Shown: one piece after another, positions 42,963 through 49,455 of the stretch
Position numbering within the stretch: position 1 is the first letter of the stretch
Layout: every line of letters starts with the position of its first letter
Assembly: GCA_031281555.1 (NCBI GenBank)
Contig: JAITFK010000212.1
Location: 1 to 49,455 of the forward strand
Direction of reading: 5' to 3'
DNA length: 49,455 nucleotides
Origin: Treponema sp.
GTDB lineage: Bacteria; Spirochaetota; Spirochaetia; Treponematales; Breznakiellaceae
Made by a program: the position numbers and the translations under genes
Notes under the pieces: generated by a model
Told to the model about the DNA's origin: nothing
Databases searched by the model: none
The model's input: the letters and a program-made list of their open reading frames with translations, nothing else

Positions 42963-44102
42963 ATGAATTATACCCTGTCCCTTATTGTCCCCTGTTATAA
43001 TGAAGCGCGGACTATAGAATCCTGTATTGAAAGAGTTTTGGATATTTCAATAGGGAAGGATTTTTCTCTGGAAATTGTCATTGTAGATGATGCTTCAACA
43101 GACGGTAGTTGGCAAATTCTTGAGAAGATAACCGCACAAAATAATAAAATTAGAATTATTAAACATGAAAAAAACCGGGGTAAGGGAGCGGCATTAAGGA
43201 CAGGATTTATCCATGCTACAGGAGACTTCGTGGGGATTCAAGATGCTGATGCCGAATATGCTCCCCGTGACTATCTTACAATGCTGGAACCTTTGCTTGA
43301 CGGCAGGGCGGATGTGGTTTACGGTTCACGGTATCTGCGTCCGGATACCCGCCGGGTACTTTACTTTTGGCATACATGGATGAATAAAGCCCTGACCGGC
43401 ATATCAAATATGTTTACTAACCTTGATATAACGGATATGGAAACTTGTTATAAATTGTTCCGCCGGGAAATAATACAAAAAATTGCTCCTGAGTTAAAAG
43501 AAGAGCGTTTTGGATTTGAACCGGAAGTAACAGCAAAAGTCGCGGAAACGCAATGCCGTGTGTACGAGTGCGCCATATCCTATAATCCAAGAACTTATGA
43601 AGAAGGCAAAAAAATCGGCTGGAAAGACGGAGTTCATGCTCTGTACTGCATTTTCCATTACAGCGCACATATAGCGCCGCTTCCTATGCAGATATTGATT
43701 TATCTGTTTATTGGAGGAGTTTCACTTTTAGTCAATATGGCCTTTTTTGTCGGTTTCACACGTACGGGAGTAGCGCTGGATTATGCAATTATTATTTCGT
43801 TTATTATTTCCGCCTTATGCAACTATCTTCTGTGTATAGCGATCCTTTTCCGCCATAAAGCGCGATGGAACACAGGCGCGGAGCTGTTTTGGTATATTTT
43901 TTCCGTTTTAATAATGGGTGCTGTTGACTTTGCATTAACGCAGCTGCTTATTACTGTAGTACCGTTTTTTACATTGCATTGGAGCGGAGCGAAATTTATC
44001 GCATCGATTATTGGATTTATCGGTAATTTTACGCTGCGAAAGATACTTGTTTTTCCGAAGAGAAGAAACAAGATAGATAATAATATTGATAAAGCGTTGT
44101 AA
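42963..44102 (+). CDS. Family 2 glycosyltransferase fused to GtrA-like membrane domain
   Basis: This 379-residue protein has a GT-A glycosyltransferase domain (1-225) like dolichol/polyprenyl-phosphate sugar synthases: LIVPCYNEARTIESCI at the start, EIVIVDDASTDGS, and GIQDADAEY with the metal-binding DAD. The C-terminal 140 residues hold four membrane helices of GtrA type (LIYLFIGGVSLLVNMAFFVGF, IGFIGNFTLRKILVF). Such fusions make and flip a lipid-linked sugar for use by GT-C transferases outside the membrane. The next three genes encode large membrane proteins of that kind, making a coherent surface glycosylation group. Confidence 0.88.
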   Translation: MNYTLSLIVPCYNEARTIESCIERVLDISIGKDFSLEIVIVDDASTDGSWQILEKITAQNNKIRIIKHEKNRGKGAALRTGFIHATGDFVGIQDADAEYAPRDYLTMLEPLLDGRADVVYGSRYLRPDTRRVLYFWHTWMNKALTGISNMFTNLDITDMETCYKLFRREIIQKIAPELKEERFGFEPEVTAKVAETQCRVYECAISYNPRTYEEGKKIGWKDGVHALYCIFHYSAHIAPLPMQILIYLFIGGVSLLVNMAFFVGFTRTGVALDYAIIISFIISALCNYLLCIAILFRHKARWNTGAELFWYIFSVLIMGAVDFALTQLLITVVPFFTLHWSGAKFIASIIGFIGNFTLRKILVFPKRRNKIDNNIDKAL

Positions 44103-44121
44103 AACTGTGTAAAGGTATAAT

Positions 44122-45957
44122 ATGTTTTCAGAAAGTTTAACACGAAAAACAATAATTATATATGCTGTTTTGTTATTTGCGGTTTTCTTTTTGGAAGTAG
44201 TGTTTTTTCGAAGCATGATTTTCCATAAAGATAGAATATTTGGAGACCTTGGAGACAGCAGGCTTGTTTCACTTATTTTAGAACATTGGTATAAAGTATT
44301 CAGCGGTAAGGAAGTTATAAGAGATCTGTCGATGTTTTATCCGGTAAAAAACACGCTGGGTTATTCCGATGCTCTTTTTCTTTTATCATTACCGTATTCT
44401 GTTTTAAGAGCATCCGGAATAAGCTGGTTAACAGCTTATCAGTTGACATTGATTATTACCCATCTTTTCGGCGGTATTTGCCTGGTATGGTTTTTAAGAA
44501 AAAGTTTAAAGCTTCCTTTGTGGGCATGTATCATAGGATTGATTATCGGGAATTACAGCAATTCTTTTTTTGTTAAGATAGGACATACTCAATTTGTTAC
44601 GCATAGTATAGTACCATTGCTTTTTATTTTTTTAAAGAATTTTTATGACAGTTTTACTCCATACCTGAAAAAAAAACGTATGATTTACGGAATTCTGTCT
44701 ATAATCATTTTAGCGGGTATTCTTTTAACCAGTTTTTATGTAGGTTTCTTTTGCGCTTTCTTTTTATTGACAGTAAATGTTGTTATTGCAATATTTCTTC
44801 TTAAGAGTAATTCGGAAAATTTAAGGAAAACAACAAAAATTATTAAAGTTTATAAATTTGAAATTCTAACATATGTAGTGACAGGAATAGTTGTTTTACT
44901 GCCTTTTTTATGGATATATATGCCTGTTTTTAAGGAAATGGGAGCAAGAGGCTGGAGTACTGTTGCCTATTTTTTACCTTATTGGTATGATTTTTTTAAT
45001 GTTTCACCGGCAAATTTGATATGGTCTTTTCCCAATACTTCAGAAAAACATGAAATGATGGTAGGATACCCATTAATAACAGGTATAATTCTTATTATCG
45101 GATGTATTTTTTATATCAAATTATCAAAGAAAAATACATTATCTTTAGAAAAGAAAGAAATGCGCTTTTATATGCTTTTTGGGTTTTCTTTTGCGATAGC
45201 GATTATTTCTTTGTTAATACTGAAAATAGATATAAGTAATATATTTAATACAATAAATAGAACAGGTCTATTTGATATAGCAGGCAATAATGTTGGAAAT
45301 AAAATCAGGCGCATGGGTGAAACAGGTTTTGGTCTTTGGTTTTTTATTTGGTTATTAATACCAGGTACTTCTGCTATGAGGGCTATAGCAAGATTTAACC
45401 ATTTTTTATCACTTCCGGCTGGTATAATAATTGCCTGCTTTTTGGCTGAGCGGATTCGTATTGTAAATAAAAATTATATCAAATATTGGATATGTACCGT
45501 TTTAATCACTGTATTTTTTTTGGAACATCAAAATACCCGGGAAATATCTTTTTGGACCAAATCACAAATAAATAATTATCTTGAAAAAGTATCCGCTCCG
45601 CCTGAAGACTGCGAGTCTTTTCTTCTTGTAAATAACACTATTTCTGTAAATTTTGTTTATCAATTGGATGCATGGACTATCGCTAATAAGTATAATATAA
45701 AAACCATCAACGGTTATTCAGGACAATTTCCGAAAAATTTTGATTATATATGGGAAATGGAGTCAAACAAGAATTACTACGATATTTTGCGTTGGATCAA
45801 TGAACATAATATGAAGAATGTATATTTATATGACTATAAAAATGACAATTGGATAAGGTGTACAGAATCAGTGTTAAAAAAAGAATTAACAATGAAAATT
45901 AATTTTACAAATAAAATTTCCAATTTTTCCGGCTTTTTAATAGCGGAAGTTGTTTAG
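44122..45957 (+). CDS. Polytopic membrane protein, GT-C-like, tandem paralogue 1
   Basis: This 611-residue protein has about 10-12 membrane helices. A first loop between helix 1 and 2 carries GDLGDSRLVSLILEHWYKVFSG and FYPVKNTLGYSDALFLL, with acidic residues of the sort found in GT-C glycosyltransferase active sites. The C-terminal 130 residues form a soluble domain. I do not recognise a named family; a role in transferring a lipid-linked sugar, or a YfhO-like function, is inferred from the layout and the GT2-GtrA gene 19 bp upstream. It is closely similar to the next gene. Its last 17-20 residues (after ESVLKKELT) look like read-through into a remnant of a further gene start. Confidence 0.75.
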   Translation: MFSESLTRKTIIIYAVLLFAVFFLEVVFFRSMIFHKDRIFGDLGDSRLVSLILEHWYKVFSGKEVIRDLSMFYPVKNTLGYSDALFLLSLPYSVLRASGISWLTAYQLTLIITHLFGGICLVWFLRKSLKLPLWACIIGLIIGNYSNSFFVKIGHTQFVTHSIVPLLFIFLKNFYDSFTPYLKKKRMIYGILSIIILAGILLTSFYVGFFCAFFLLTVNVVIAIFLLKSNSENLRKTTKIIKVYKFEILTYVVTGIVVLLPFLWIYMPVFKEMGARGWSTVAYFLPYWYDFFNVSPANLIWSFPNTSEKHEMMVGYPLITGIILIIGCIFYIKLSKKNTLSLEKKEMRFYMLFGFSFAIAIISLLILKIDISNIFNTINRTGLFDIAGNNVGNKIRRMGETGFGLWFFIWLLIPGTSAMRAIARFNHFLSLPAGIIIACFLAERIRIVNKNYIKYWICTVLITVFFLEHQNTREISFWTKSQINNYLEKVSAPPEDCESFLLVNNTISVNFVYQLDAWTIANKYNIKTINGYSGQFPKNFDYIWEMESNKNYYDILRWINEHNMKNVYLYDYKNDNWIRCTESVLKKELTMKINFTNKISNFSGFLIAEVV

Positions 45958-46010
45958 TAATTGAAATTACTGAACAACTTAAATGTTTTTTTATATTTTA
46001 CAATATTTAT

Positions 46011-46038
46011 AAAGCGGCTGGTTATAGTCATCCGCTTT
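46011..46038 (+). terminator. Weak hairpin between the tandem paralogues
   Basis: AAAGCGG and CCGCTTT form a 7-bp stem around a 14-base loop, followed by TAAAAA rather than a U-run. A second small inverted repeat, AGTAATT-GA-AATTACT (45956-45971), straddles the stop codon of the first paralogue. The 111-bp gap also holds the AGATGAGGAAATAAA ribosome region of the second paralogue. Attenuation is possible but not certain. Confidence 0.35.
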
Positions 46039-46068
46039 TAAAAAATATATGTTAGATGAGGAAATAAA

Positions 46069-47856
46069 ATGTTTACGGAGAATTCAACGCAAAAAAAGAT
46101 GATTGCGTGGGCTGTTCTGTTACTAACAGTTGTTTTTTTGGAGACAGTATTTTTTCGAAGCATGATTTTTAATAATGATAATATAGTTGGAGACCTTGGA
46201 GACAGCAGGCTTGTTTCGCTTATTCTGGAACATTGGTATAAAGTATTCTGCGGTAAGGAAGGAATAAGAGATCTATCAATGTTTTACCCGGTAAAAAACA
46301 CGCTGGGTTATTCCGATGCTCTTTTCCTTTTATCATTACCGTATTCTGTTTTAAGAGTATCAGGAATAAGCTGGTTAACAGCCTATCAGTTGACATTGAT
46401 TATTATCCATTTTTTCGGAGGTATTTGTCTAGCATGGTTTTTAAGAAAAAGTTTAAAACTGCCTTTATGGACATGTATCATTGGATTGATTATAGGCAAT
46501 TTCAGCAATTCTTATTTTGTAAAAATCAGTATTTCCCATTCGCAATTTATTACACACAGTTTAGTACCATTGCTTTTTATATTTTTAAAGATTTTTTATG
46601 ACAGTTTTACTCCATGCTTGCAAAAAAAACGTATGATTTATGGAATTTTGTCTATATTCCTTTTTGCGGGTATACTTTTAACCAGTTTTTATGTGGGTTT
46701 CTTTTGCGCTTTCTTTTTATTAACAGTAAATATTGTTATTGCAATTTATCTTCTAAAGATTAATTCGGAGAATTTAAGGAAAGCAATAAAAATTATTAAA
46801 GCCTATAAATTTGAAATTTTAATTTATATAGTAACCGGAATAGTTGTTTTACTGCCTTTTTTATGGATATATTTACCTATTTATAAAGAGATGGGAGGAA
46901 GAAACATCGGCGGAGTATTATTTTATTTACCTTATTGGTATGATTTTTTTAATGTCTCCCCAACAAATTTGATATGGTCCTTCCCCAATACTTCAGAAAA
47001 ATATGAATTAATGGTAGGATATCCCTTAATAACAGGTATAATACTTATTATTGGCTGTGTTTATTATATTAGGCAATCAATAAAAAAAACACTATCTTTT
47101 GAAAAAAAAGAAAAGAGCTTTTATATGCTTATTGGATTTTCTTTTGCTATTGCAATTATCTCATTATTACTATTAAAAATAGATATGAGGCAAATAGTTA
47201 GTATATTAGAAGAAAAGGGCATAATAAATATGAAGCAAATAGGCAGTATACTTGATGAAAATGGTATATCTGACGCAGAAAGTAAAATAAAAAACAAAGC
47301 TGGTTTTAGTCTTTGGTTTTTTGCTTATTTTTTAGTACCAGGCGCGTCCGCTATGTGGACAGTAGTCAGATTTAACCAATTTCTATCATTTCCTGCGGGT
47401 ATAATAATTGCTTGTTTTTTGTCTGAAAAACTTCGTATTGTAAATAAGAATTATATAAAATATTGGGTATGTATTGTATTGATTGCGTTAATATTTTTTG
47501 AACATCAAAATACTAGGGAAATGTCTTATTGGACTAAATCATATATAAACAGTTATCTTGAAAAAGTATCCGCTCCGCCCGAAAGCTGCGAATCCTTTCT
47601 TCTAGTAAACAACGACACATCTGAAAATTATGTTTATCAATTGGATGCATGGACCATCGCCAATAAATATAATATAAAAACAATCAACGGATATTCTGGG
47701 CAATCTCCTAAAAATTGGTATTATATATATGATATGGAGTCTAATAGAAATTACAGCGACATCTTACGCTGGATTGATGAACATAATCTGGAGAATGTAT
47801 ATTTATATGATTATAAAAATGATAAGTGGATTAGGTGTACAGAATCCGTACTTTAA
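46069..47856 (+). CDS. Polytopic membrane protein, GT-C-like, tandem paralogue 2
   Basis: This 595-residue protein has the same plan as its upstream neighbour: helix 1, a conserved first loop (GDLGDSRLVSLILEHWYKVFCG), about ten more helices and a soluble C-terminal domain ending in CTESVL. Compared with copy 1 it carries a few extra residues in a mid-protein loop that contains a 15-residue tandem repeat, and ends shortly after ESVL at a TAA that copy 1 lacks. Both copies are intact, so they may have distinct acceptors or be under selection for variation. Function unknown; a sugar transferase or flippase-like role is inferred. Confidence 0.75.
   Translation: MFTENSTQKKMIAWAVLLLTVVFLETVFFRSMIFNNDNIVGDLGDSRLVSLILEHWYKVFCGKEGIRDLSMFYPVKNTLGYSDALFLLSLPYSVLRVSGISWLTAYQLTLIIIHFFGGICLAWFLRKSLKLPLWTCIIGLIIGNFSNSYFVKISISHSQFITHSLVPLLFIFLKIFYDSFTPCLQKKRMIYGILSIFLFAGILLTSFYVGFFCAFFLLTVNIVIAIYLLKINSENLRKAIKIIKAYKFEILIYIVTGIVVLLPFLWIYLPIYKEMGGRNIGGVLFYLPYWYDFFNVSPTNLIWSFPNTSEKYELMVGYPLITGIILIIGCVYYIRQSIKKTLSFEKKEKSFYMLIGFSFAIAIISLLLLKIDMRQIVSILEEKGIINMKQIGSILDENGISDAESKIKNKAGFSLWFFAYFLVPGASAMWTVVRFNQFLSFPAGIIIACFLSEKLRIVNKNYIKYWVCIVLIALIFFEHQNTREMSYWTKSYINSYLEKVSAPPESCESFLLVNNDTSENYVYQLDAWTIANKYNIKTINGYSGQSPKNWYYIYDMESNRNYSDILRWIDEHNLENVYLYDYKNDKWIRCTESVL
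47185..47274 (+). repeat. 45-bp tandem repeat inside paralogue 2
   Basis: Two adjacent 15-codon units encode MRQIVSILEEKGIIN and MKQIGSILDENGISD. Copy 1 has unrelated sequence at this loop (ISNIFNTINRTGLFD). The repeat lies between two membrane helices, so it extends an exposed loop. Confidence 0.65.
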
Positions 47857-47870
47857 AAGGAATAAAAAAA

Positions 47871-49455
47871 ATGAAAACTAGTTTTGTAAATAAATTTAAC
47901 GAACTAATAAGCAAAATAGAAGCTTCTCGAAATGGGTATGATAAGTATATTGCTATATTAATTTTAATTTCTTTTTCTATATTATGTTTTTTATACATGA
48001 AACTTACAGGAATTCATAATGTTAGATCCGATGGTTTGGGTTATTGGAGATATTTACCAGATTTGTTTATAAGAAAAGACCTCTCTTTTAAGAACAAATA
48101 TACAATCGGCGTTGCCTTAATGGAGCTTCCTTTTTTCCTTGTTGCTCATTTTTTTTCAATTATTAGCAATCTTTATAAAGTTGATGGTTATAGCTTTCCG
48201 TATATATTAAGCTCTTTATTAGCTCAAATGTTTTATTCAAATTTAGGACTAATGTTTGTTTATAAGTCTTTAAGAAAATTTTATAATGTCAAAATTACTG
48301 CGATTACTCTTGCTACAATCGCTTTTTCAACCGGTTTGTTTTTTTATGTTGGTGAAAATTATTCGCATGTATTTTCTTTTTGTGTTATAGCCATGTTTTT
48401 ATACTATATGTTTAAAGCTTATGAAACTGACCGTATTAAAGATCATATAATTGTAGGATTGTTACTTGGTGTTGTTGCTTGCTGTAGAGTAACGAATATC
48501 ATTGTTGTGTTAATATATATTTTTTGTGGAGTCAAATCTCCATCTGACTTTATAGCAAAAGTGAAGTTAAAAAATACATATCTACAATTTACCGCCAGCT
48601 TTATTTCATTCCTGTTTGTGTTTTCATTACAAATGATTTATTGGCAACATGCTTTTAGATCATTTATTGTTAATTCATACGAGAATGAAGGTTTTACATT
48701 TTTACTTAATCCTCAATTATATAATATTTTATTCTCTTTATTGAGAGGATTATTCGTATGGCATCCAATATATTTATTTGTATTTATAGGTTTTTATTTT
48801 TTAATTAAAAATAAGAATTACAGAAGTTATTTAATCGGGACGACAGTATTTTTTATAATATATCTTTGGATTACCAGTTCATGGTGGTGCTGGTGGTATG
48901 ATTGGTCTTTCGGGCAGCGTCCATTCAATGATATTTTAGCTGTTTTTGCCATGCCGCTTGCCGCTCTGATTAAAAAGAGTGACAGCATTCGTTTTCATTA
49001 TTTAAAGAAGACTATTATAAATCACTCGGTTCATAAAAAATATTTTGTAGTAGCTCGTTTACAATTCGCAGTTTTAATAGTTTTTATTTTTTTATTTTCT
49101 ATAAGAAACATAACTTTTTCATTAATGCTGCGGGATGGGTTATTTACAATGAAAAACATAAACGATTTACCTTATAAATTCAGCGATTTTGTATTTATAT
49201 CAAGACCTAAAAATCTTTTTAAAGATAAAATAATTTGGTCTGATGTTAATCAATTTATAACGGCCAGCTTACATAGACCAACAACATTTGCAGCATTTCA
49301 CGGCGTTGAGTTTGCAACCGGCCCTCAAGGTGATAAAGTACACGACTTTAGAATAGCTGGAGACGGTAAAGCATATTACAAAAATAAAGAAATATTGAAC
49401 ACAGATGATTTAAATTACGCAGATTATGAAATTAAAACAAACAAAAAGTGGATAA
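47871..49455 (+). CDS. GT-C-like polytopic membrane protein (partial, runs off the right edge)
   Basis: This gene is absent from the ORF track because it has no stop in the window. From ATG 47871 (ribosome site AAAAGGAAT) 528 codons are open. After about 25 polar residues there are roughly nine to ten hydrophobic helices. The first loop reads VRSDGLGYWRYLPDLF, with an aspartate where GT-C enzymes often have their catalytic acid, and a later aromatic motif WWCWWYDWSFGQRPFND is typical of PMT/GT39-like bacterial membrane proteins. It follows the tandem pair by 14 bp and is probably co-transcribed. It is not clearly homologous to them except near its start codon, where the DNA resembles the 3' end of paralogue 1. 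Confidence 0.75.
   Translation, partial: MKTSFVNKFNELISKIEASRNGYDKYIAILILISFSILCFLYMKLTGIHNVRSDGLGYWRYLPDLFIRKDLSFKNKYTIGVALMELPFFLVAHFFSIISNLYKVDGYSFPYILSSLLAQMFYSNLGLMFVYKSLRKFYNVKITAITLATIAFSTGLFFYVGENYSHVFSFCVIAMFLYYMFKAYETDRIKDHIIVGLLLGVVACCRVTNIIVVLIYIFCGVKSPSDFIAKVKLKNTYLQFTASFISFLFVFSLQMIYWQHAFRSFIVNSYENEGFTFLLNPQLYNILFSLLRGLFVWHPIYLFVFIGFYFLIKNKNYRSYLIGTTVFFIIYLWITSSWWCWWYDWSFGQRPFNDILAVFAMPLAALIKKSDSIRFHYLKKTIINHSVHKKYFVVARLQFAVLIVFIFLFSIRNITFSLMLRDGLFTMKNINDLPYKFSDFVFISRPKNLFKDKIIWSDVNQFITASLHRPTTFAAFHGVEFATGPQGDKVHDFRIAGDGKAYYKNKEILNTDDLNYADYEIKTNKKWI

Follow-up and report, generated by a model that had tools for sequence, protein, structure and literature searches.

How did a membrane protein gene acquire a C-terminal tail that its tandem duplicate lacks? 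The two genes concerned lie near the end of the window, by which we mean the whole 49,455-nucleotide stretch analysed, taken from a draft genome assembly of 2.49 Mb (completeness 82.7%, contamination 4.5%) whose kin point to what is probably a Treponema-like spirochaete. What reads as a V-type ATPase operon is followed by a family 2 glycosyltransferase gene with a GtrA/DPMS membrane domain (GT2-GtrA; 42963..44102, + strand; Pfam PF00535, E 2.4e-39, and PF04138, E 4.6e-13), by copy 1 of the duplicated gene (A1; 44122..45957, + strand; 611 aa), by copy 2 (A2; 46069..47856, + strand; 595 aa, ending ESVL-TAA) and by gene B (47871..49455, + strand), inside which the contig ends. Gene B encodes a PMT_2-type membrane glycosyltransferase (PF13231, E 1.5e-6), and it also matches the LA_3751/LA_3752 family weakly (E 4.8e-4, 19.1 bits vs. 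a cut-off of 200). The G+C content falls from ~41% upstream to 28-31% from A1 on (44103-49455; ~29% at A1), and this drop, together with the absence of close homologues of A1 and gene B from the sampled genus genomes, suggests that 44103-49455 was acquired from elsewhere.

A1 and A2 are adjacent on the same strand, with a 111-base spacer between them, and share 82% nucleotide identity up to the residues ESVL and 77% amino acid identity. The preliminary description of this DNA had ended the shared reading at ESVL, and both this limit and the coordinates and sequences that it quoted proved exact: similarity per 60-column block falls from ~0.88 to 0.52 at this point. The last shared codon is TTA in A1 (ending at 45876) and CTT in A2 (ending at 47853), and the copies then part company; in A2, TAA (47854-47856) is followed by a ribosome site and then the gene B start codon ATG, whereas A1 has AAA at the position of the TAA and runs on for 26 more codons. 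By protein and DNA alignment this A1-specific tail, KKELTMKINFTNKISNFSGFLIAEVV plus the stop (45877..45957, + strand), is absent from A2. The two copies differ by a dS of 0.57 and a dN of 0.13, with a dN/dS of 0.23 overall and 0.11 over the last 100 codons, values that point to an old rather than a recent duplication and to two cores that both look maintained under purifying selection. Upstream of the two start codons identity is 47%, and the upper edge of the duplicated unit is thus invisible. Within A2, positions 47178-47268 hold a 45-base tandem repeat (two copies, 80% matches), which is an in-frame duplication of 15 residues (MRQIVSILEEKGIIN / MKQIGSILDENGISD) located where the alignment of A1 with A2 is worst. 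Searches of 39 other genomes of the genus, of other relatives and of a phylum sample returned only distant relatives of A1 and A2 and no close homologue; gene B likewise had no close homologue in the sets searched. Single-copy versions of the A locus, for which the preliminary description had looked to related strains, were found in none of the relatives searched.

The first part of the tail resembles the start of gene B. The preliminary description had aligned it with the stop, ribosome site and first codons of that gene, and pairwise alignment bears this out: the best alignment after ESVL pairs 45878-45919 with 47855-47898, contains a single 2-base gap and sets the ATG at 45892 on the ATG at 47871. 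This relic (45878..45919, + strand) comprises the ribosome-site region, the ATG and the first ~9 codons of gene B, all translated in the A1 frame, and the similarity ends at ~45919. In dinucleotide shuffles the score was reached at the expected place in 0-5 of 2000 trials, and in 8-30 of 1000 when the match was allowed anywhere in gene B; placed that freely, the tail DNA score would by itself be moderately significant only. Because any gene start has a purine-rich site and an ATG, we also compared the tail with 37 other Shine-Dalgarno-preceded gene starts of the same genome as a control for these shared features. Counted without gaps from the ATG, gene B agreed with the tail at 23/30 bases (vs. 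a mean of 12.4, sd 3.0, for the 37 gene starts, none of which did as well), and its gapped score was 21 (vs. a mean of 5.3, sd 3.9; next best 13). Neither the 703 gene-start pairs nor the 183 ATGs of the AT-rich stretch included an equal of the gene B match; similarity after ESVL is better than expected for AT-rich DNA. We take the match of the tail to the start of gene B, as judged from these alignments, to be real, though not overwhelming alone.

The spacer between A1 and A2 carries a second relic of gene B (45986..46041, + strand), which lies outside any ORF and starts from the equivalent of codon ~94. A repeat search matched 45986-46034 to 48152-48200 (73% over 49 nt), and the match extends to 45986-46041 against 48150-48207, with weaker similarity on to 46060. 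Translated, the spacer relic (FFIFYNIYKAAGYSHPLL) aligns with gene B (FSIISNLYKVDGYSFPYI) at a score reached by 1/2000 shuffles, and it is readable in the phase of gene B (YKAAGYSHPLL vs. YKVDGYSFPYI); its score was not matched by any of 2390 real AT-rich segments drawn from this genome (44 vs. a maximum of 38). Both relics are on the gene B strand and collinear with gene B. The whole spacer gave no significant alignment with gene B when treated as one gapped piece (92/1000), because a repeat fragment, described below, sits between the two relics.

Might the likeness between the tail and the start of gene B be no more than chance, a product of AT-rich DNA and of the common look of a ribosome site followed by ATG? 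The 10-residue tail match is not significant at the protein level when taken alone (551/2000 shuffles), and the up to 30/1000 shuffles that reach the DNA score anywhere in gene B would also sit comfortably with such an explanation. We nevertheless hold it to be very unlikely, given that nothing among the 37 gene starts and the 703 gene-start pairs comes close, that the match is located where a duplicated A-B unit predicts it and that a second, independent relic lies downstream; chance would have to produce both relics, in order, at the one site that duplication predicts. The preliminary description had also proposed a duplicated unit extending into the third gene, and the tail match and the spacer relic both argue for this; its extent, on the other hand, was put too short at the first codons, and the second collinear relic indicates a unit that would have extended at least ~330 bases into gene B.

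The end of A1 has a different source. Exactly between the two gene B relics sits a fragment of a dispersed palindromic repeat (45932..45985, + strand), recognised by BLAST across the genome, by an alignment of 15 copies and by a covariance model, with a hairpin at 45947-45980 and a run of T behind it. This fragment supplies the A1 end GFLIAEVV-TAG (~45932-45957): the last codons, GGC TTT TTA ATA GCG GAA GTT GTT TAG, belong to the repeat, whose hairpin carries the stop TAG (45955-45957) in its 5' arm. The tail therefore opens with the gene B start (~14 residues) and closes with the repeat (~8 codons plus the stop), with a few residues of uncertain derivation in between, and the earlier proposal that a remnant of the next gene was fused to the C-terminus of A1 holds for the opening part but not for the closing one. 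Homologues in other spirochaetes and in a myxobacterium have C-termini unrelated to this tail, and a conserved domain is ruled out by the way distant homologues differ there. The tail is also the lowest-confidence part of the A1 structure model (mean pLDDT 26-33, residues 591-611), and because of this and of the unrelated ends of the homologues we think that it is probably neutral baggage; the annotated A1 end (a KKELTMKINFTNKI-like tail) should not be taken for a functional domain.

We put at roughly 85% the probability that the locus arose by tandem duplication of A together with part of B, decay of the resulting B1 and readthrough of A1 into an end provided by the repeat. The homology of A1 and A2, the two collinear relics of B and the repeat with its copies elsewhere are all observed directly. 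The ancestral state would have been a pair A-B, in which a PMT-type gene followed a gene for a GT-C-like membrane protein. Tandem duplication of a unit that began close to the A start and extended to codon ~112 of B or beyond would have given A1 - truncated B1 - A2 - B. Functionless, B1 would then have decayed, with ~250 bp lost between codons ~9 and ~94 and the repeat fragment coming to lie at that place. A substitution of TAA to AAA would have removed the A1 stop and a 2-base indel would have put the B1 start into the A1 frame; A1 would thereafter read through the B1 start and end at the TAG within the repeat. The order in which we give these events is conjectural, as is any linkage of the deletion with the insertion of the repeat.

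A variant of this history, in which the duplication took in all of A-B and two later deletions shortened B1, seems to us somewhat unlikely, although nothing in the window tells the two apart and the 3' end of gene B, lying beyond the contig, escapes comparison with what precedes A2. If the unit ended inside B, the lack of any recognisable gene B sequence past codon ~112-119 ahead of A2 would be explained, and no second deletion would be needed to remove the 3' part of B1.

The direction of the stop codon change bears on a further alternative. Loss of the stop in copy 1, asserted in the preliminary description, is the most economical reading, in that A2 keeps the stop, the ribosome site and the start of an intact gene; with no single-copy relative to serve as an outgroup, we infer stop loss in A1 over stop gain in A2. 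Conversely, the long C-terminus of A1 could be ancestral; A2 would then have acquired its stop behind ESVL, and the gene B start would have arisen over the tail so lost. The direction is not fixed by any outgroup, a profile of A1 plus A2 runs beyond the A2 stop to 47907 and the in-frame stretch found there (INLTN vs. INFTN, as read from the sequence) would fit this course of events, which we consider very unlikely all the same: distant homologues are without such a tail, the end of the tail is a dispersed repeat and the spacer relic requires a copy of B downstream of A1 in any case. We thus retain duplication followed by stop loss in A1.

The repeat has a wider distribution. A genome search with 45940-46068 gave many partial matches to its first ~54 bases, and the copies yield the consensus GCTTTTTATTAGCGGAAGTTGTTTAGAAACTGAAGTTTCTAAACAACTCTATT. 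The covariance model scores 45924-45990 at 70 bits and finds 64 matches in this genome, counted on both strands, which correspond to ~39 distinct places (E<=0.01), ~26 of them strong. When the search was widened to 60 genomes, 38 of them, counting the present one, gave matches at E <= 0.001; the majority belong to the same genus, and one genus member had up to 86 (a figure equal to the number of candidates scored). Besides 45924-45990, copies of the family were seen at loci L022, L024, L025, L028, L029, L030 and L035; the repeat occurs across the genus, and in one member at many contig ends. The hairpin in the window has 15 pairs (-16.9 kcal/mol, z -5.0) and is terminator-like, with a T-rich run behind it, and over the aligned copies 97.9% of cells are paired and 3 pairs have changed on both sides. 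Of the copies examined, nearly all fall outside ORFs of at least 100 aa. The long form of the repeat (~115-130 bp, three hairpins; L025:1520-1660 folds at -49.7 kcal/mol, z -8.5) starts roughly with TAGACTTGTTCAACAAC and ends roughly with GTTTCTAAACAACTCTA, which are complementary by eye at 13/17 positions, and the fragment in the window represents its 3' hairpin only. The TA found at both edges of the repeat is no more than suggestive of a target-site duplication.

At loci L020, L024, L028, L030 and L031 several copies have the stop of a neighbouring ORF no more than ~5-6 bases from the palindrome, an arrangement that looks as though the edge of the repeat supplied the stop or acted as a terminator. 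Conceivably the palindrome serves in this genus as a portable cap, a hairpin with a stop and a terminator-like structure whose copies persist where they terminate frames that a duplication, a deletion or the loss of a stop has left open, with the A1 end and sites just behind the stops of several other genes as examples; we regard this idea as unlikely. Rfam contained no match for the repeat, and the family PF01797 (Y1_Tnp, RAYT) had none in this genome; the presence of a Y1 transposase in ten genus genomes does not track repeat number either, and such a transposase as the motor of the repeat is unsupported. A description of the repeat for Treponema or this group was not found in the literature searched, which is a weak negative. 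The repeat family may be the more useful by-product of this analysis.

As for what the duplicated genes encode, A1 is a multi-helix membrane protein that may resemble the GT-C membrane glycosyltransferases. These enzymes rank first for its low-confidence model (mean pLDDT 52.9), with the best PDB match at E 1.5e-3 to OST/STT3, followed by PglB, ArnT and AftA, and the neighbours of A1 and A2 are a GT2-GtrA gene and a PMT_2 gene. Against Pfam and NCBIfam, neither A1 nor A2 scored above threshold for any family; no PDB entry matched either by sequence, and no Foldseek match to the A1 model reaches E 0.001. In another genome of the phylum (L072:8604-12007), a distant A1 homologue is directly followed by GT2 (PF00535) and GtrA (PF04138) genes, inside a run of apparent nucleotide-sugar genes. 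Judging from the model and the neighbourhood, A1 and A2 probably have a part in transferring sugars from lipid carriers to glycans or proteins of the envelope.

Tandem duplication that leaves the downstream gene truncated and creates a readthrough fusion is a general mechanism, and for a copy to lose its stop and run on into a duplicated stretch of its neighbour is nothing unusual in this setting. The present locus conforms in its direct copies, in the relic of the neighbour at the junction and in a C-terminal extension by stop loss, and departs from the general case in that a repeat fragment in the scar supplies the end of the reading frame. For this last feature there is a parallel in Coxiella burnetii Dugway, where an insertion of QMITE2 is credited with the C-terminal 33 residues of EnhC (PMC5896051): there too a small palindromic mobile repeat at the 3' end of a gene provides C-terminal residues, and an indel decides whether the frame enters the element. 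The two repeat families are alike by description only, and the stop lies just downstream of the element in Coxiella but inside the hairpin arm here; the published passage on enhC describes no duplication relic, unlike what we find (PMC5896051). With bacterial MITEs (PMC10969869) the repeat shares its short, non-coding, dispersed and mostly intergenic character, its stable hairpins and, in the long form, what may be imperfect terminal inverted repeats, a likeness that rests on sequence features, with a transposase search that covered Y1_Tnp only; the review of these elements makes no mention of Treponema (PMC10969869). Set beside these systems, the duplication scar is well preserved but ordinary, and stop loss and a repeat-supplied end are each of known kinds; their combination is neat rather than new in kind, and it offers a worked example of a C-terminus assembled after tandem duplication from non-homologous pieces, the start of a neighbouring gene and a dispersed palindrome.
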